Virus record (IMG/VR): IMGVR_UViG_3300030103_001846
Location: 1 to 60,658 of that record
Reading direction: 5' to 3' (one strand)
Source: a virus
DNA: 60,658 nucleotides
This document shows, piece by piece, positions 1 through 60,658 of the stretch. How positions within the stretch are numbered: the first letter of the stretch is position 1; every line of letters begins with the position of its first letter. The notes under the pieces were generated by a model. It was not told the DNA's origin and searched no databases. It saw only the letters and a program-made list of their open reading frames with translations. The position numbers were made by a program, and so were the translations under genes.

Positions 1-1436
1 CTTGTTATACCAACGTAAAACACTCTGGTTTCATCGTCAGGATCACGTTGATAATTATTAAAAACTTTATGTGTTATGTCTGTAAACAATATAACGTTGT
101 CCGCCTCTGCTCCTTTTGCAGCATGGATAGTAGATATACGAATACGAGGTTGTTTTAAAACTTTTTCTCCTCTTCTCAACATAGCTTGTAAATAACTTCT
201 TTCTGTTATAGAAACCATATCTAAACACTCAAACCATCTACCACGTGGTAAAACACCAACTATATTTTCTACGTAAGTTCTATCTACTTTTTCATCTCCT
301 TCGAACATTTTTAATTGTGTTTTAGCTACCTTTTTTATATATCTTAAAAATGTTCCACAATCTTGTTTGCTTAATTTTTCGTCTTTATTAAATTTTTCCC
401 AGTTCCTTACACCCTCTAACTTTATGGCTGTAATACTTGGATTACCCTTAACTTCAAAAAACCATCCTTCATGCTTACAGTGGTCTATAATATTGTTTAA
501 TAAATAATTAGTTCTTGCTAAAACTAGCCAAGTTCCTTCACTCATGTCTATATGTTCAAATCCTCTTTCCCAACTAACTAGTCCTTGTTCTTCTTTAGGT
601 TTCCAAGACTTAGCAACTCTTTTAGATAATCTTCCTACTGTGTCTCTAGCTAATTTGTGTACGGAGCTAGGTATCCTATAACTTTGATTTAAAACAGTAG
701 CATTTTTACAGTTATTAATTAAATAATCTACGTCAGCCCCCGCCCATTTATATATGGCTTGGTCATCATCACCTGCTATATAAATTTTATGACTGCCCTC
801 TATAATCTTATTAACTACAGACCATTGCAATGGGCTTAAATCCTGAGCTTCGTCTATAAATAAAGCGTCTAACTTAGGTGCATAACCTCTTTGTAAAAAG
901 AAAGTAAGCATATCTGTATAGTCGTATAATCTTCTAACCTTTTTATAAGCCTCATACCCTCTACTAAATCTATCTAAAGCATACCAATTTACTGCGTCTT
1001 CTACCTCATGCCACACATCTTCTAAAGGTTCTTTCTTCATTCTAGCTAAATTATCTATAAACATTAATCTATCGTCTTTAGACATACTGTATATAGTTCC
1101 GTCTTCTGTATTTTGAGAACCTGTAAGTTTTATATTTAATTTATCGTTTAATTCAATTAAATGTGTTCTTTCAAAAACATCCTCTTTATTTAAACCTAAT
1201 TGATGAAAGCTTAGAGAATGTAATGTTTTGAAATAAGGTAAGTCTTTTTTAGACAACGAAAATTTATGCATGGCTCTTTCAATACCTTCGTTTACAGCTC
1301 TTTTAGTAAAAGTAAAAAACCCAATCTTATCTGGAGATACACCACTATCTAATTCGTTTTCTATTAATTGTAATAAAGTAGACGTTTTACCTGTTCCCGG
1401 TGGTCCTAATATCACTTGAGTTTTTTCAGGCAACAT
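1..1436 (-). CDS. UvrD/Rep-like superfamily 1 DNA helicase (3' end continues at the right edge)
   Basis: An SF1 helicase that should unwind DNA in phage replication or recombination. It starts at ATG 1436 behind an AGGACAGG ribosome site. Walker A (GPPGTGKTS) is at residues 11-19, the DEAQD box is in LFIDEAQDLSPLQW, GDDDQAIYKWAGA follows, and the last motif is VFYVGITRA. The reading frame runs off base 1. The missing end is at 60499-60556, giving 497 residues when the map is closed. It sits directly downstream of the AlkB-like gene and upstream of the methyltransferase. Family assignment is firm; UvrD versus PcrA/RecD2-type role is not resolved. Confidence 0.93.
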   Translation of the reverse strand, partial: MLPEKTQVILGPPGTGKTSTLLQLIENELDSGVSPDKIGFFTFTKRAVNEGIERAMHKFSLSKKDLPYFKTLHSLSFHQLGLNKEDVFERTHLIELNDKLNIKLTGSQNTEDGTIYSMSKDDRLMFIDNLARMKKEPLEDVWHEVEDAVNWYALDRFSRGYEAYKKVRRLYDYTDMLTFFLQRGYAPKLDALFIDEAQDLSPLQWSVVNKIIEGSHKIYIAGDDDQAIYKWAGADVDYLINNCKNATVLNQSYRIPSSVHKLARDTVGRLSKRVAKSWKPKEEQGLVSWERGFEHIDMSEGTWLVLARTNYLLNNIIDHCKHEGWFFEVKGNPSITAIKLEGVRNWEKFNKDEKLSKQDCGTFLRYIKKVAKTQLKMFEGDEKVDRTYVENIVGVLPRGRWFECLDMVSITERSYLQAMLRRGEKVLKQPRIRISTIHAAKGAEADNVILFTDITHKVFNNYQRDPDDETRVFYVGIT

Positions 1437-1438
1437 AT

Positions 1439-2023
1439 TTATATACCTGTCCTAAAAGTTAAATTAATTCTTGTATCTATTGGTGATTCTACATCTAATA
1501 TATTGTGTGTAGATTTAAGTTGGCTTTTACCATCAAATATGATTACATCACCGTCCTCTAATAAAAAATATTTTGTGCAATCTAATTGTTTATACCTTAC
1601 ATCTATTTCAGAGGTATTAGTTTTATCTTTAATATTTTTTGCATATTGTCTCCAACCAAATACTCTAGGTGCACCAAATGAAACAGAAACTACTAAATCT
1701 TTTTCTGTAGGCACTGTGTCGGAATGGTAAGGGATACCTTTTCCTTCTTCGCTATAAAAACCACACAAACAAAAATTAAATTCTACTTCCTCATTTAGTT
1801 CTTGTTTAATAAGTGTTTGTAGATTATCTTTGATATATTTCATTGGTTTTGTCCATGGGTCTGGTTTATAAACTTTACCTGCATAATTAAAGTTTTTATT
1901 CCCAAAAGCTCTAGTCGGTCTGCCTTTAACTAAATTACCTTTATACAATCTTATGTTAGGTTCATCCCAATAATCTATCTTAGGATCAAAACCAGATAGA
2001 CCACCTTTTATAAATTTAATCAT
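1439..2023 (-). CDS. AlkB-like 2-oxoglutarate/Fe(II) dioxygenase
   Basis: A 194-residue oxygenase of the AlkB family, which hydroxylates alkyl groups on nucleic-acid bases using Fe(II) and 2-oxoglutarate. Iron ligands are visible as H100-x-D102 and H163, and the signature RxNxTxR is RINLTFR at 175-181. The fold core SVSFGAPRVFGWRQ follows the first metal motif as in AlkB. Length fits the family. It lies two bases upstream of the UvrD-like helicase and next to the base-modification cluster. DNA repair is the default role; action on a modified thymine is an inference from context. Confidence 0.85.
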   Translation of the reverse strand: MIKFIKGGLSGFDPKIDYWDEPNIRLYKGNLVKGRPTRAFGNKNFNYAGKVYKPDPWTKPMKYIKDNLQTLIKQELNEEVEFNFCLCGFYSEEGKGIPYHSDTVPTEKDLVVSVSFGAPRVFGWRQYAKNIKDKTNTSEIDVRYKQLDCTKYFLLEDGDVIIFDGKSQLKSTHNILDVESPIDTRINLTFRTGI

Positions 2024-49544: not shown

Positions 49545-49856
49545 TTAATCTTTTTTAAACAATCCGTCTTCTAAAACACCCTTACGATTTTTAATTTCTC
49601 CATAAGCGGTATCTAAACATTCACGAATACTCAGATCATTTTGTTTTGCTAATACTATTAAACAAACTAAACAATCACCTATACCGTCAGCTAAAGACCA
49701 TTTATCTTTATAGGCAACTGCTTTTGCTGTTTCTCCGACTTCTTCTACAAGTTTTAACATTTGTTTTTCTGGTTGGACATCAGCAGTAAAAAGCCCTCGA
49801 ACTTTCGCCCAATCTTCTACTTCTCTAATTAAAAATTCTATTGGTTCATCTATCAT
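49545..49856 (-). CDS. MazG-like nucleotide pyrophosphohydrolase
   Basis: 103 residues of the all-alpha MazG/dUTPase-like fold. The metal-binding EExxE motif is EEVGE in LKLVEEVGETAKAV, and the second acidic helix has IGDCLVCLIVLA. These enzymes hydrolyse nucleoside triphosphates, for example to clean the pool or lower ppGpp-type signals. Common in marine phages. Follows the structured RNA-like region. Confidence 0.82.
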   Translation of the reverse strand: MIDEPIEFLIREVEDWAKVRGLFTADVQPEKQMLKLVEEVGETAKAVAYKDKWSLADGIGDCLVCLIVLAKQNDLSIRECLDTAYGEIKNRKGVLEDGLFKKD

Positions 49857-55431: not shown

Positions 55432-55577
55432 TTTTTCTCCTTTGGTAAATATACTATTACTTCTGATTTGCATTTTGGGCAACTTAAATTAGTTTCCATG
55501 ATGTATTCATTGTTTTCATCTTCTATATCGTGGTCTCCACCCCATATTAATTGTGTACCGCAATGCCAACAATTCAT
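55407..55577 (-). CDS. small zinc-ribbon protein (56 aa)
   Basis: 56 residues from ATG 55577 (MNCWHCGTQLIWGGDHDIED) with CWHC and CPKC pairs: a zinc ribbon seen in many phages. ATGA overlap with the polymerase stop couples them; its 3' end overlaps the HTH gene by 25 bases. Confidence 0.7.
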   Translation of the reverse strand: MNCWHCGTQLIWGGDHDIEDENNEYIMETNLSCPKCKSEVIVYLPKEKKCKVLTKI

Positions 55578-57433
55578 TTTATTTCACCCCAACTTTTACC
55601 AACTTCCATATCTATATCCATTGGAACTTCTAAATTAACACAATTAATCATAGCTTTTTTAACTATTTCTTTTTCTTCTTGGGTAGCTAAAGAAAAGTCT
55701 AATTCATCATGAACTTGCAATAAAGGCACGATACCTTCTTTTCTAACTTCTAACATTGCTAACTTAGTCATGTCTGCTGCAGAGCCTTGGATTAATCTAT
55801 TTAAGGCTTTATAAGTAAATGCTCTTTTTAAATCAAATCCATATTCTTCTATAGCTTTTTGTTCTGGCAGGGGTGTTACTTCGTTATAACTACCACTTGG
55901 CTCCCATCTATCAAACCTTGCTTTTCTACCACCTAATGTTTTTACATACCCTCTATCAGAAGCTAACTTAGTGCAATAATCCATTAGACCTTTAATAAAA
56001 GGAACTTTAGTATGGTATTGGGCTAAAAGCTCGTTACCTTCCTCCTCAGAGACCCCTAGCTCGTTTATAAGCTTCCTTACACCCATCCCATAGGTAAGCC
56101 CTAAGTTTATATCTTTAGCTTGTTTACGGGGTATGTTTGCCATATCTGCTACTATTTGGTGAAAGTCAGCGTTACCTTCTTTATAACTTTTAACTGCTTG
56201 TTCAGCACCAACCATTTTTAATTTATGTGCAAAATGAACTGTTATTCTTGGTTCTTGTTGGCTGTAATCAAAACAACACCATTCTTGTCCGTCCTCAGGA
56301 ATAAATATAGATCTTATCATTGGACCTATTTCTGGATCTCTTGCGGGAACTTGTTGTAAGTTTGGATTAGAATAACTAAACCTACCTGTTACCGTTCCAC
56401 CAAGCTCTGATCTTGAACTATGTGCTTCAGCATGTATCCTTCCATTTACTTCATGATCAAATATCATTTTTTTAACAAAAGTCCCACCTGCTTTATTATA
56501 TTTTCTTGCACGTGCAATAGCTTTTGGTAAAGGATGTTCATGGTTTTCTAACCAACTAGCTTGGAAACTTGGTGAGCCTTTTTCTGTATAAGGGTAATGT
56601 AAACTATTTTTATCAAAGGCTTTTTGTATAGAGGCATTAGCCCATATATCAACCTCTACTCCATATTGTCTTTTTATATCTAATAAAATTGCTTGTTCTT
56701 TTATAGATAAGTCATGCATAATCTTTTCTGCTTTTTCTAAATCTACCCTTACCCCCATCATTCTCATTTCAATAACAAGCTGAACTATATCCATTTCTGT
56801 TTTAAATACTTTGGATAAATTTTCTTCAGCTATTTGTTGTTTTAAAACTTTCCATAGATCGTAAGTAAGCCTAGCGTCTCTTTCTGCATATAAGCCCACA
56901 TACTTAGACGGTAATTTCCACATATCACCTTTATTATTTAAACCATAAGATAATAAAGCCTCATCTAATAAACTCTCGTCTTTTTTCTGACCACAATACT
57001 TTTCGCCTAGATTATCTAAAGAATATGAAAATGCGTTTTCATCTAATAAAGGTGCGGCAACTAAAGTATCAACTATATTACCTTCTATGTTAAAACCCTC
57101 AGCTTTTAACCAACCTAAATCATAAACAGCGTTATGAAAAACTTTAGTAGCGTTAGAATTTAATTGCTTTTTTAACCATCTATAAACTATTTCTTTATCT
57201 AAATTACCACCGCCTAAATGAGAGAACGGTAAATAAATTTCACCGCTCTCCCACCCTACAGCAACACCTATAATCTCTCCTTCTTTTCTAGCCCAACCTG
57301 AACCTTTAGTCCTTAATGAAGGATCTCTAGTTTCTAAATCGACACTAAACTCTTTACAGTTTGTTAAGTTTGGTAAAGTGTCCGGTATAGACCAGTCTGT
57401 ATCTGGATTAAACAGTGTTCTTTGTAGACTCAT
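55574..57433 (-). CDS. family A DNA polymerase with 3'-5' exonuclease (Leu at the 762 position)
   Basis: 619 residues from ATG 57433; a TTG at 57478 gives a longer frame but lacks a ribosome site. The exonuclease domain has D32/E34 (SVDLETRD), FHNAVYDLGWL and YAERDARLTYD. Polymerase motif A is CCFDYSQQEPRITVHF (D389), unusual as the common form is DYSQIELR. Motif B is RKQAKDINLGLTYGMG with Leu at the E. coli 762 position, and motif C is VHDEL. No DnaJ insert. Overlaps the Nmad1-like gene by 26 bases. Confidence 0.93.
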   Translation of the reverse strand: MSLQRTLFNPDTDWSIPDTLPNLTNCKEFSVDLETRDPSLRTKGSGWARKEGEIIGVAVGWESGEIYLPFSHLGGGNLDKEIVYRWLKKQLNSNATKVFHNAVYDLGWLKAEGFNIEGNIVDTLVAAPLLDENAFSYSLDNLGEKYCGQKKDESLLDEALLSYGLNNKGDMWKLPSKYVGLYAERDARLTYDLWKVLKQQIAEENLSKVFKTEMDIVQLVIEMRMMGVRVDLEKAEKIMHDLSIKEQAILLDIKRQYGVEVDIWANASIQKAFDKNSLHYPYTEKGSPSFQASWLENHEHPLPKAIARARKYNKAGGTFVKKMIFDHEVNGRIHAEAHSSRSELGGTVTGRFSYSNPNLQQVPARDPEIGPMIRSIFIPEDGQEWCCFDYSQQEPRITVHFAHKLKMVGAEQAVKSYKEGNADFHQIVADMANIPRKQAKDINLGLTYGMGVRKLINELGVSEEEGNELLAQYHTKVPFIKGLMDYCTKLASDRGYVKTLGGRKARFDRWEPSGSYNEVTPLPEQKAIEEYGFDLKRAFTYKALNRLIQGSAADMTKLAMLEVRKEGIVPLLQVHDELDFSLATQEEKEIVKKAMINCVNLEVPMDIDMEVGKSWGEIK

Positions 57434-57740
57434 CAGATATTTTTTCTTTAGCCATTTGGTCAAATATATGCGACTCAACTAATAATAAGTATCTTCTTAA
57501 ATCCCCTATATCGTCTAAAATACCCTCAGCCCTAGAATCTTCTAACGCAGTTTGGAAAACATCCCAACCGTGTTTTTTAACTTGGTTTTCTAATCTATCC
57601 CACTTACGAGCTAACATCATAAAAGCTCCTACCCCACCACGTTGTTTCCAACTAGTGCCATAAGACTTCTCTGCCTCTTTAAGTATTTCGACATCGCCCC
57701 AAGCTAAGTCTTCTATTAATTTATAATTATTTCCCGTCAT
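57408..57740 (-). CDS. Nmad1/DUF1599-like protein
   Basis: 110 residues. KSYGTSWKQRGGVGAFMMLA, a K-x-D-R-L helix and ILDDIGDLRRYLLL resemble the nucleotide modification associated domain 1 (DUF1599) pattern of YG-x-SW plus an acidic helix. It sits between the polymerase and the thymidylate synthase homologue. Assignment is from memory of the family pattern and is tentative. Confidence 0.45.
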   Translation of the reverse strand: MTGNNYKLIEDLAWGDVEILKEAEKSYGTSWKQRGGVGAFMMLARKWDRLENQVKKHGWDVFQTALEDSRAEGILDDIGDLRRYLLLVESHIFDQMAKEKISDESTKNTV

Positions 57741-58748
57741 TTAAGTTCTCCTTTTTATATAACTACTACAGGCTAATCTCCAATCCTCTTGAAGAATAGT
57801 TTCAGCCATTTCTACTGATTCTCTAAATTTATGTTCCTTAAATAAATTCCAACTTTTTATAGCAGGTATAGCAACACGCTCTAAAAATACATTATTTAAT
57901 TTAACGTCCTGCCTATAATCACCGTCTAAAACAAACTTAAGTTCTTTATCAAAAGTCTCAGTATCTTTAACTAAAGGTATAGTTTTTTCATGTAAAGATT
58001 CAGCATACTTTTTATCGTTATAATTATGTAAACCTACTGCTACACTTATCTTAGAAACTTTATCTTTCCATATAGGAAAATCTATGTATAAATGTAAGTT
58101 ATCTGTAAAATGGTAATAAGTTCCTAATTTAACTCCTATCATTGCTGCCATGTATTCGTGTAATACACTGAAGTGAACCATGTTGGCTCCAAAACAACCC
58201 CATATTAAATCGTTAGACCGATTAGTTACCGTCATCCGTAAAGCACCATCTCTAATTTTGAAATATATTTGTGTATTACATGGAACATCTTTGCCCTCAC
58301 CCTCTAGGTGGTTTAAATCTTTTTCCGCTCCCCACATTTGTAAAACACAACGTCTATCATCAGGATTCTTTTTTAACATTTTTATTATCGTTTTTAATTG
58401 GTCTGTGCCAAACATCCATCTCCACCTATAACCATAAGCTCCCCATAAAGTTTTTCCATCATCACTATACTCTCGCATTCGTGGAACATAATGTTCCATA
58501 GAAGCTAAATCTCCTCTACCTGCTAACATCCATAAGCTTTCGGCTAAATGAAAAAATGGATTACAGTCTCTATAGGGGTCTTGTAAAACCCTTACATTTG
58601 GATATTTATAAGAAATACAAACAGGTGTTTTTATTTCCCATACCGTACCATTTCTAGTTTTTTGTTCAATGTAATTGCCGCTATAACCGAACATATCAAG
58701 TCCTTTATAAAAACCATCATTTACATTAAACGCTTGTATTGTATGCAT
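57741..58748 (-). CDS. thymidylate synthase-like enzyme, possible dUMP hydroxymethylase
   Basis: 335 residues of the ThyA fold. Kept: E70 (AESLWML), R132-R133, catalytic C157, R177-S178, D180, N189 and H219-x-Y221. Changed: the residue after C157 is Asn (VPCNT) rather than His, one extra residue precedes N189 (GCFGAN), and the segment around E. coli W80 is rewritten (MREYSDDG). It uses dUMP with methylene-tetrahydrofolate to make dTMP or, given its neighbours, 5-hydroxymethyl-dUMP. Overlaps the hypermodification gene by 23 bases. Confidence 0.8.
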   Translation of the reverse strand: MHTIQAFNVNDGFYKGLDMFGYSGNYIEQKTRNGTVWEIKTPVCISYKYPNVRVLQDPYRDCNPFFHLAESLWMLAGRGDLASMEHYVPRMREYSDDGKTLWGAYGYRWRWMFGTDQLKTIIKMLKKNPDDRRCVLQMWGAEKDLNHLEGEGKDVPCNTQIYFKIRDGALRMTVTNRSNDLIWGCFGANMVHFSVLHEYMAAMIGVKLGTYYHFTDNLHLYIDFPIWKDKVSKISVAVGLHNYNDKKYAESLHEKTIPLVKDTETFDKELKFVLDGDYRQDVKLNNVFLERVAIPAIKSWNLFKEHKFRESVEMAETILQEDWRLACSSYIKRRT

Positions 58749-59595
58749 ACTTACTCCTTGTCCTACCTTGCCCTTTTAAAATTCTTGAATACTTATCAAA
58801 CTCACATAAACCTCCCTCTACTTCTCTTAACTCAAAAGGATGTCTATTAGAGTTAAAAATACTTTTGGGTAATAAATACCTGCATATTTTATATAGTTCG
58901 TTCATCTCACCTACCCAATCGTGAGACTTCTTTTTAAAATCTAAATCTCTACCTGTCAACCTGTTTAAACCTCTCATTGCTCCGGGACCTGCATTAGCCC
59001 ATGTTAATCTGTCTTTAGCGTCTCTTCCAAATTTAGTAAAACTTAAATCTGTTACAATTTCATAAGCCATAAATGGACCTTGAAAAGGAAAGCTTTTTAT
59101 ATATAGCCACATATCCTGCATAGAGTTTTGACATGAATTTGCTTTTGCTAATATTTCTTTTCTTTGCTCCCACATATAATCAATACATAAACTAATACCT
59201 TTTAATTTATCGTAACCGTCCGGGCTTTTAATAACGTAAGCACCAGTAATCCATTGATCCTGTTCTCTAATTTTTTCGTTTGCTAATTCAGAGTCCCAAT
59301 TAATATGTAGATTGTGTTTTAATAAAGTCTCACCTGTTTGGATTAAGTTAAACCATCTAAATATAACAGTAGCCATAAATACTTCTTCAGAATTTTCTAA
59401 AGGGTTACGTATATTATCTATATACCATCTACTAGTTCTATCATCGTTTCTAAAAACTTGACAAAACTTATACTCTTTTAATATAGGGTCTTCAGTCCAA
59501 GGAGGAGTTTGATTTAACTCCTCCTTTTGGATTCTTATATTTTCTCTTTCTTCAATCCAATATAAATAAGTTTTTAATTCTTCTTTTAAAAACAT
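58726..59595 (-). CDS. thymine hypermodification protein (HMUDK helical domain / aGPT-pyrophosphorylase-like)
   Basis: 289 residues. ERENIRIQKEELNQTPPWTE (16-35), YKFCQVFRNDDRTSRW (42-57) and the HhH-like WANAGPGAMRGLNRLTG (199-215) match my recollection of the 5-hmdU DNA kinase helical domain / alpha-glutamyl-putrescinyl-thymine pyrophosphorylase family. These proteins act on 5-hydroxymethyluracil in DNA, installing an amine or amino acid. Position between the ThyA homologue and a methyltransferase supports this. No kinase P-loop is visible. Confidence 0.65.
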   Translation of the reverse strand: MFLKEELKTYLYWIEERENIRIQKEELNQTPPWTEDPILKEYKFCQVFRNDDRTSRWYIDNIRNPLENSEEVFMATVIFRWFNLIQTGETLLKHNLHINWDSELANEKIREQDQWITGAYVIKSPDGYDKLKGISLCIDYMWEQRKEILAKANSCQNSMQDMWLYIKSFPFQGPFMAYEIVTDLSFTKFGRDAKDRLTWANAGPGAMRGLNRLTGRDLDFKKKSHDWVGEMNELYKICRYLLPKSIFNSNRHPFELREVEGGLCEFDKYSRILKGQGRTRSKYAYNTSV

Positions 59596-60446
59596 TAAGC
59601 AGAGTCTTTTTTACTTAATCTCCAAAAACAATTATTTGAAGTTTCTGGATAAAAAGTAGCTGCAGCTACTCTTAAAAATTGTCTACCAAACCTTTCTTCT
59701 AACATAGATAATTGTTCTTTAGTCCATATCTCTTTTGCATTTTGAGATTGATTAAATTTACGCATTTGTGTAAACACACCAACTACTGACTCTAAATTAA
59801 AATATTTTTCTAATAGTTCTTTTAATTCTAAAAAGCCCCATTCATAAATATGATCTTCTGGAAGTTTATCGTTAGACCCATCATGATTAGGTGTAGAGAT
59901 AAATACAGTCCCGTCCTTTCTTAAAACCCTACTTAGTTCAGATATCCAAGGCTCTACAGCTTCTCTAGGCATATGTTCTATAACTTCTGTAGACCAAGCT
60001 ACATCTATAGATTCATCCTCATGAGGTAATATTGGATCAACACTAACGTCTTTTATTTCTAAAGTAGCGTTAAAGTTTTTAATCCATGTAGTGTCTTCAA
60101 GATCACATCCGTCTCCAGACCAATATCTTATTTCCTGAAAAGACGCAGGATCGATATCGTAACCCCAATAAGAAGCAACTACATCTGATTTTTTAACAAC
60201 AAAAGACTTATATAATGTCCTTAGCACCCATACCTCTCCACACCCTATTTCTAAAGTGTCTAAAGGTCTTCCTTTCTTTTTAGCATCATCTACTAAATAT
60301 GATGCAATTTTTTCGTACCTAGACATATGAGCTATCTCATCCGGTCTAAAGTTAGCGAATACACCTGCATGAGAAATATTCATCCGAGTATTTTTACACT
60401 CGTTTGGGTTTTGCTCAGCAGTTAATTTTTTTCTTATACTTGGCAT
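59595..60446 (-). CDS. class I SAM-dependent methyltransferase
   Basis: 283 residues with a Rossmann SAM-binding core: motif I TLEIGCGEVWV (64-74; third Gly replaced), WSTEVIEHMPRE and GTVFISTPNHDG. It resembles Methyltransf_11/23 proteins. It heads an operon with its own TTGATT/TATAAT promoter at 60481-60509 and precedes the hypermodification gene, so a role in base modification is possible. Substrate unknown. Confidence 0.75.
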   Translation of the reverse strand: MPSIRKKLTAEQNPNECKNTRMNISHAGVFANFRPDEIAHMSRYEKIASYLVDDAKKKGRPLDTLEIGCGEVWVLRTLYKSFVVKKSDVVASYWGYDIDPASFQEIRYWSGDGCDLEDTTWIKNFNATLEIKDVSVDPILPHEDESIDVAWSTEVIEHMPREAVEPWISELSRVLRKDGTVFISTPNHDGSNDKLPEDHIYEWGFLELKELLEKYFNLESVVGVFTQMRKFNQSQNAKEIWTKEQLSMLEERFGRQFLRVAAATFYPETSNNCFWRLSKKDSA

Positions 60447-60509: not shown

Positions 60510-60658
60510 AATATTTTCTTGTTGTTGGTTCGATTAAATATAATCGCTTTTTTGCCCTTGTTATACCAACGTAAAACACTCTGGTTTCATCGTCAGGATC
60601 ACGTTGATAATTATTAAAAACTTTATGTGTTATGTCTGTAAACAATATAACGTTATCT
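60499..60658 (-). CDS. UvrD-like helicase, 3' end (partial)
   Basis: Continues the frame of the gene at 1-1436 when the map is closed. Ends RVFYVGITRAKK then TTRKYFDL and TAA at 60499. Bases 60557-60658 repeat 1-102. Confidence 0.9.
   Translation of the reverse strand, partial: DNVILFTDITHKVFNNYQRDPDDETRVFYVGITRAKKRLYLIEPTTRKYFDL
60557..60658. repeat. terminal direct repeat of bases 1-102
   Basis: 98 identical bases followed by two mismatches (99 G/A, 102 C/T). Evidence for a circular or circularly permuted map. Confidence 0.95.

Follow-up and report, generated by a model that had tools for sequence, protein, structure and literature searches.

The 60,658-nucleotide virus record IMGVR_UViG_3300030103_001846, analysed here over its whole length (the window), carries a compact gene cassette that we propose to hypermodify thymine in phage DNA. 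It encodes an S-adenosylmethionine (SAM)-dependent methyltransferase (MT), a protein of the HMUDK_hel family (HEL) and a ThyA homologue (TS). In our preferred reading, to which we give a probability of about 0.55, the three enzymes would act together so that 5-hydroxymethyl-2'-deoxyuridine (5-hmdU) in DNA is O-methylated by MT to yield 5-methoxymethyl-2'-deoxyuridine (5-methoxymethyl-dU). The three genes are conserved as a block in related viral contigs. The block contains no kinase, no amino-acid:DNA transferase (ADDT) and no TET-associated glycosyltransferase (TAGT), and kinase, TAGT and MT replace one another beside HEL and TS.

On the minus strand, MT, HEL, TS and a conserved 110-aa protein (O110) are packed head to tail, as in an operon, directly upstream of the DNA polymerase A gene (PolA; Table 1). 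MT and HEL share one base at their junction (TAATG), while the overlap of HEL and TS is 23 bases long. This layout of mechanically called open reading frames (ORFs) bears out the initial annotation, made from the letters alone, which had placed four minus-strand ORFs, a SAM methyltransferase among them, beside the polymerase. The promoter of its own that the same annotation gave to the cassette was not confirmed: a scan located a 10/12 site at 60509-60481, yet the region holds fewer such sites than shuffled sequences. A scan against Rfam gave nothing above chance.

We retrieved 80 IMG/VR loci through HEL (54 to 100% identity) and 80 through MT, and the MT-HEL-TS arrangement recurred wherever the contig reached. 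Order and strand were kept in 153 of the 153 loci holding all three genes, and the block is therefore not due to chance. HEL was present in 158 of the 159 loci with MT, the lone exception being an incomplete locus. After collapsing redundant loci by an exact 500-base key, which may leave near-identical contigs in place, IMG/VR holds about 94 loci with MT and TS, none of them with a kinase. Many loci of this class have a 74-87-aa ORF between HEL and TS (L021:6863-7123), which is absent from the window.

Comparison with cultured phages shows which gene MT stands in for. M6 has the order ADDT gp51 (PF18724), pyridoxal phosphate (PLP) enzyme, radical SAM enzyme, kinase gp54 (PF18748) and HEL gp55, followed by Nmad5 gp56, TS gp58, an HD protein and the polymerase (gene list in PMC9476957). 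In Ab18 and PaMx11 the order is transferase, FAD enzyme, acetyltransferase, P-loop kinase, HEL, TS, HD protein and polymerase. MT occupies exactly the kinase slot of these three phages. M6 DNA carries 5-(2-aminoethyl)-dU (5-NedU), made via 5-hmdU and a 5-hmdU DNA kinase (PMC6449724); our further details of M6 and PaMx11 enzymology come from citing papers, Pfam and PDB titles and general knowledge. The window shares with the M6/YuA pathway homologous HEL and TS in the same order beside PolA, with agreeing Pfam families, but has neither the kinase nor the ADDT, radical SAM and PLP enzymes. With the 5-NmdU-type pathway of PaMx11 and Ab18 it shares the order of a variable enzyme, HEL, TS and polymerase, whereas their kinase, glycinyltransferase gp46, FAD enzyme and acetyltransferase are replaced in the window by MT alone. 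The initial annotation was thus right about the type of gene set, the loss of the kinase and the presence of a methyltransferase, which is not an extra member but stands in the position of the kinase.

The kinase is not hidden elsewhere in the window. We found no match there to PF18748 (5-hmdU DNA kinase) or PF18724 (ADDT), no kinase in searches of the ORFs with the M6 and Ab18 enzymes, and no homologue of the M6 PLP and radical SAM proteins. Among ORFs of at least 60 aa, the only convincing Walker A motif is that of the helicase. None of 18 MT-type contigs of 58-82 kb matched PF18748, PF18724 or PF20691 (TAGT), while the same profiles recovered their positive controls (PF18748, 4/4; PF18724, 2/2, in M6 and Ab18; PF20691, 4/4).

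A wider search with HEL revealed that the third enzyme of HEL-TS loci varies: non-redundant loci carried MT (94), a GT-A/TAGT glycosyltransferase (34) or a kinase (32), in proportions that depend on the queries chosen. MT was never found alongside a kinase or TAGT, nor a kinase alongside TAGT. The TAGT assignment in these sibling phages relies on a PF20691 match of 95 bits. This pattern suggests that HEL is a 5-hmdU-DNA module common to these phages, with a swappable decorator as the third enzyme, and the exchange is the main argument for the role that we propose for MT. The TAGT loci (L209:6635-7426, L207:5837-6619, L215:2867-3652 and about 30 more) are predicted to glycosylate 5-hmdU. A few HEL-TS loci hold GT-B or PIG-L (GlcNAc deacetylase-like) genes; those adjoining HEL are possible decorators (L205:3764-5011, L228:3858-4940, L236:2-874, L253:7263-8600, L201:596-1147 and L185:3947-4510). 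FkbM-type methyltransferases unrelated to MT lie near HEL in L206:6097-6795, L252 and L231:6104-6793, perhaps as an independent methylating decorator, and 2 of the 34 TAGT loci also carry one.

The initial annotation had matched HEL to the HMUDK-helical/aGPT-pyrophosphorylase families and had set a search against PF18723 beforehand as a refuting test; the protein scores 149.7 bits against that curated model (cut-off, 25 bits). It shares 30-40% identity with M6 gp55 and its PaMx11/Ab18 counterparts, the latter being the closest cultured relatives (about 37-40%). In a quick tree, HEL proteins of the MT class group together in a single clade (SH-aLRT, 99), with the kinase-type proteins of PaMx11 and Ab18 as closest relatives. 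The top three PDB hits of the AlphaFold2 (AF2) model (pLDDT, 86) are structures of the PaMx11 gp46 5-PmdU glycinyltransferase (8z2m, 8z2n; probability, 0.99; weak E-value of about 0.1; TM score, about 0.44), followed, at low probability and with weak E-values, by helix-hairpin-helix DNA glycosylases. Since the best structural match is a DNA-acting enzyme of the sister pathway, the simplest reading of HEL is a putative module for recognising 5-hmdU in DNA and flipping the base. HEL proteins of the MT, kinase and TAGT classes have 40 conserved positions in common, in keeping with a single shared role. Relatives also occur in chromosomes of Patescibacteria (Uhrbacteria, Paceibacterota and others; L254-L270), where almost none has a ThyA gene in its vicinity; identity is 22-25% over the full length and reaches 44% in short segments.

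Across its full length, TS shares about 42% identity with the enzymes of the M6/YuA and PaMx11/Ab18 groups. It keeps the equivalents of the catalytic and dUMP-binding residues C146, R166, S167, D169, N177, H207 and Y209 (E. coli numbering), the first being C157 and N177 being N189 in TS itself. It is divergent, as the initial annotation had supposed, and fails all the NCBIfam cut-offs for dTMP synthases by a wide margin (80 versus 174.6, 69 versus 327 and 53 versus 108 bits); a hit indistinguishable from ordinary dTMP synthases, the other refuting outcome named in that annotation, was thus not obtained. In the PDB, TS matches the CMP hydroxymethylase MilA best, and every dTMP synthase ranks well below it. 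With the dUMP-binding residues kept, these low scores and the match to MilA make hydroxymethylation of dUMP likely. The Asp at position 177 expected of a dCMP hydroxymethylase is found neither in the window nor in the 152 aligned TS proteins of the MT class, all of which have Asn. The column of E. coli W80 has no Trp in the whole aligned group; we rejected this loss as proof of hydroxymethylation, since T4 gp42 retains the Trp and W80 alone thus decides nothing.

MT matches Methyltransf_23/11 in Pfam, and its AF2 model (pLDDT, 82.6) has a class I fold. Two motifs are invariant across 29 aligned family members: E154-x-x-E157-H158, just after strand 4 in the model, and D198-H199, after strand 5. 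In HEN1, which O-methylates an RNA hydroxyl, the metal is bound by E796, E799, H800 and H860, and D859 may be used (PMC10781085). MT resembles UbiG and HEN1/HENMT1, the latter being 2'-O-methyltransferases that act on small RNAs, in its class I fold, the GCG motif for SAM and an E-x-x-E-H followed by DH, whereas its sequence similarity to them is otherwise very low, its substrate differs and it is not a member of their families. Because these residues match the HEN1 metal site, O-methylation of a hydroxyl by MT is favoured on motif grounds, the residues being present and metal binding only predicted. The best NCBIfam relatives are UbiG-like, UbiG being an O-methyltransferase, at scores far under the cut-off (19.6 versus 103 bits). 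None of the 29 members matched a DNA-methyltransferase family (N6-A, N4-C or C5-C); their Pfam matches were to generic Methyltransf families, with TehB and mRNA cap MTase once each. A search of solved structures with the MT profile returned one generic methyltransferase only.

Distant homologues of MT were found in four phages, MW202510, AXL3, PW916 and MW202621, the last three with profile scores of at least 53 bits. In all four (L273:5920-9954 for AXL3; also L274, L275 and L086), MT has a ThyA homologue, a nucleoside triphosphate (NTP) pyrophosphatase and a dCMP deaminase no more than a few genes away, and HEL is absent. Their ThyA proteins have Thr147 and, at position 177, the Asp that PMC8670742 describes as a cytosine-type signature. 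The family thus appears to accompany pyrimidine hydroxymethylases in two settings, since window-type MTs adjoin an N177 TS together with HEL (uracil type) and AXL3-type MTs a D177 ThyA without it (cytosine type). Only 2 of 37 enzymes cut the virion DNA of AXL3, and the sites of both consist of A/T alone (PMC7504290); resistance to all tested enzymes with G/C in their sites is as expected if AXL3 cytosines are modified. A search of viral contigs with the MW202510 MT retrieved nothing.

Taken stepwise, TS would convert dUMP to 5-hydroxymethyl-dUMP, as its homology suggests, and 5-hmdU would replace some of the thymine in DNA. HEL, a helical protein with a DNA-glycosylase-like fold, would recognise and probably flip 5-hmdU. 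MT, working with HEL, would then move the methyl group of SAM onto the 5-hydroxymethyl oxygen through a HEN1/UbiG-like metal site, giving 5-methoxymethyl-2'-deoxyuridine as the predicted product. Its likely purpose is protection against host restriction enzymes.

Several points weigh against this proposal. The comparison of E-x-x-E-H with HEN1 is at the level of motifs, and class I methyltransferases of the MT type methylate oxygen, nitrogen or carbon atoms. We rejected Foldseek as a guide to the atom methylated, because matches to the MT model were a non-discriminating mixture. HEL might be catalytic by itself. Since no kinase dedicated to hmdUMP was found, the host thymidylate kinase would have to serve. 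The exchange of third enzymes also follows the HEL phylogeny: the MT class is a single clade and its loci are therefore not independent, so that Fisher values overstate the case and the pattern itself carries the argument.

Two other readings are unlikely, to a similar degree. In one, the cassette makes 5-hmdU and MT methylates an amino or carboxyl group added later to the methyl carbon by a phage or host enzyme such as AlkB, as in tRNA wobble uridine chemistry. Class I enzymes of the MT type do include carboxyl- and N-methyltransferases, as the mixed Foldseek targets illustrate, and an AlkB-like gene lies nearby in the window. However, the amine-installing PF18724 enzyme is absent, and AXL3-type MTs adjoin a hydroxymethylase with no such partner in the annotated neighbourhood. 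AlkB itself is missing from 30 of 84 comparable MT loci. The initial annotation had correctly noted this gene across the map join, but we rejected it as a core member of the pathway because only 54 of the 84 MT loci, and some TAGT loci as well, hold it.

In the other, MT and HEL act on nucleotides (5-hmdUMP or 5-hmdUTP) and PolA incorporates the methylated product. AXL3-type MT genes adjoin an NTP pyrophosphatase and do without HEL, and the annotations of AXL3 and MW202510 place a thymidylate kinase-like gene beside them; the carbamoyltransferase of PMC8670742 accepts 5hmdCTP too. Against this, the window lacks a nucleotide kinase, and HEL falls in the helical-domain family of the 5-hmdU DNA kinase and most resembles, in fold, a glycinyltransferase that acts on double-stranded DNA.

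It is more doubtful still that a host or unrecognised phage kinase phosphorylates 5-hmdU while HEL does its usual job, with MT as an additional step late in the established amino pathway. HEL accompanies a kinase in M6-type phages, but the window and the 18 long MT contigs have neither kinase nor ADDT, the window lacks the M6 PLP and radical SAM enzymes, and MT sits precisely where the kinase would be. Least probable of all is that TS is an ordinary dTMP synthase, MT and HEL have unrelated roles and no modified base exists: TS does keep the dUMP-type Asn at 177, but the missed dTMP-synthase cut-offs, the best match to a CMP hydroxymethylase, the strict linkage to HEL and the identity to the enzymes of M6, whose DNA has 5-hmdU-derived bases (PMC6449724), all speak against it.

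The proposed O-methylation of 5-hmdU by the cassette has parallels in cytosine-modifying systems. The pairing of a 5-hydroxymethylcytosine (5hmC) carbamoyltransferase with a hydroxymethylase was first predicted and then proven (MetaGPA, PMC8670742). In that system, which acts with a dCMP hydroxymethylase, and in the T4 dCMP hydroxymethylase and glucosyltransferase, a ThyA-type hydroxymethylase is likewise followed by one hydroxyl-capping enzyme, but the base is cytosine rather than uracil, the group carbamoyl or glucose rather than methyl, and HEL is absent. No paper naming a methoxymethyl base in phage DNA was found, most subscription papers lying outside the search.

The window is terminally redundant and most likely a complete genome, since its first and last 102 bases agree at 100 positions and a UvrD-like helicase gene reads through the join. 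PolA and TerL have 023Pt_psg01, DSL-LC04, HTVC023P and HTVC027P as nearest relatives, which makes the window, by these two proteins, an HTVC023P-type pelagiphage or close kin. For this lineage, a thymidylate synthase paired with aG/PT-PPlase1 next to PolA has been reported (PMC9599517), in a main text that mentions neither a methyltransferase nor exchange of decorators. In the MT class, O110 comes directly after TS; it is present also in the TAGT and kinase classes. The initial annotation had called it Nmad1-like, a label that we dropped because none of 18 family members has a credible Pfam match; its homologue in Pam3 is annotated "nucleotide modification". An AEP-TOTE-like primase (PF22548; 2420-3949) adjoins the AlkB gene, and a MazG-like nucleotide pyrophosphohydrolase (49545-49856) possibly shapes the dNTP pool. 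A conserved 156-166-aa protein (MNIF...CDKH..KM.LESAQML) is encoded between the helicase and either MT or HEL (L021:4641-5141, L209:4549-5019); 45 of 84 MT loci and the majority of TAGT loci have it. It is absent from the window, and the single member scanned had no Pfam or NCBIfam match.

Table 1. Coordinates of the cassette and of other features in the window
Feature	Coordinates	Strand	Evidence or remark
MT, SAM-dependent class I methyltransferase, 283 aa	59595..60446	(-)	Pfam Methyltransf_23/11; alignment A1
HEL, HMUDK_hel (PF18723; formerly aGPT-Pplase1), 289 aa	58726..59595	(-)	149.7 bits
TS, ThyA family, proposed dUMP hydroxymethylase	57741..58748	(-)	PF00303, 80 bits; phrog_5131, 367 bits
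O110, conserved 110-aa protein	57408..57740	(-)	alignment A5
DNA polymerase A (PolA)	55574..57478	(-)	DNA_pol_A, 214 bits; adjoins cassette
AlkB-like 2OG-Fe(II) dioxygenase, across the join	1439..2023	(-)	PF13532, 68.5 bits
UvrD-like helicase	3..1436	(-)	crosses contig ends, continuing at 60658-60499
Terminal direct repeat	1..102		100/102 identity with 60557-60658
Second terminal repeat copy	60557..60658		100/102 identity with 1-102

The broader picture, in which 5-methoxymethyl-dU is an undescribed base, HEL a general module with interchangeable decorators (kinase, TAGT/GT-B or MT) and the same MT family acts on 5hmC in AXL3-type phages, is more tentative, and we put it at slightly under even odds. 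Relative to the TS/HEL pairing of PMC9599517, the methyltransferase in the kinase slot and the exchange of decorators would be new. If the proposal is true, these phages would hold a new natural DNA base, made by a very short, three-gene route of thymine hypermodification in a widespread lineage, and the restriction resistance of AXL3 would have a plain explanation. HMUDK_hel would then be a recognition module shared by pathways whose chemistry can be swapped, rather than part of a kinase or a pyrophosphorylase. Gene order would predict further modifications and suggest a toolkit for writing groups onto 5-hmdU in DNA.

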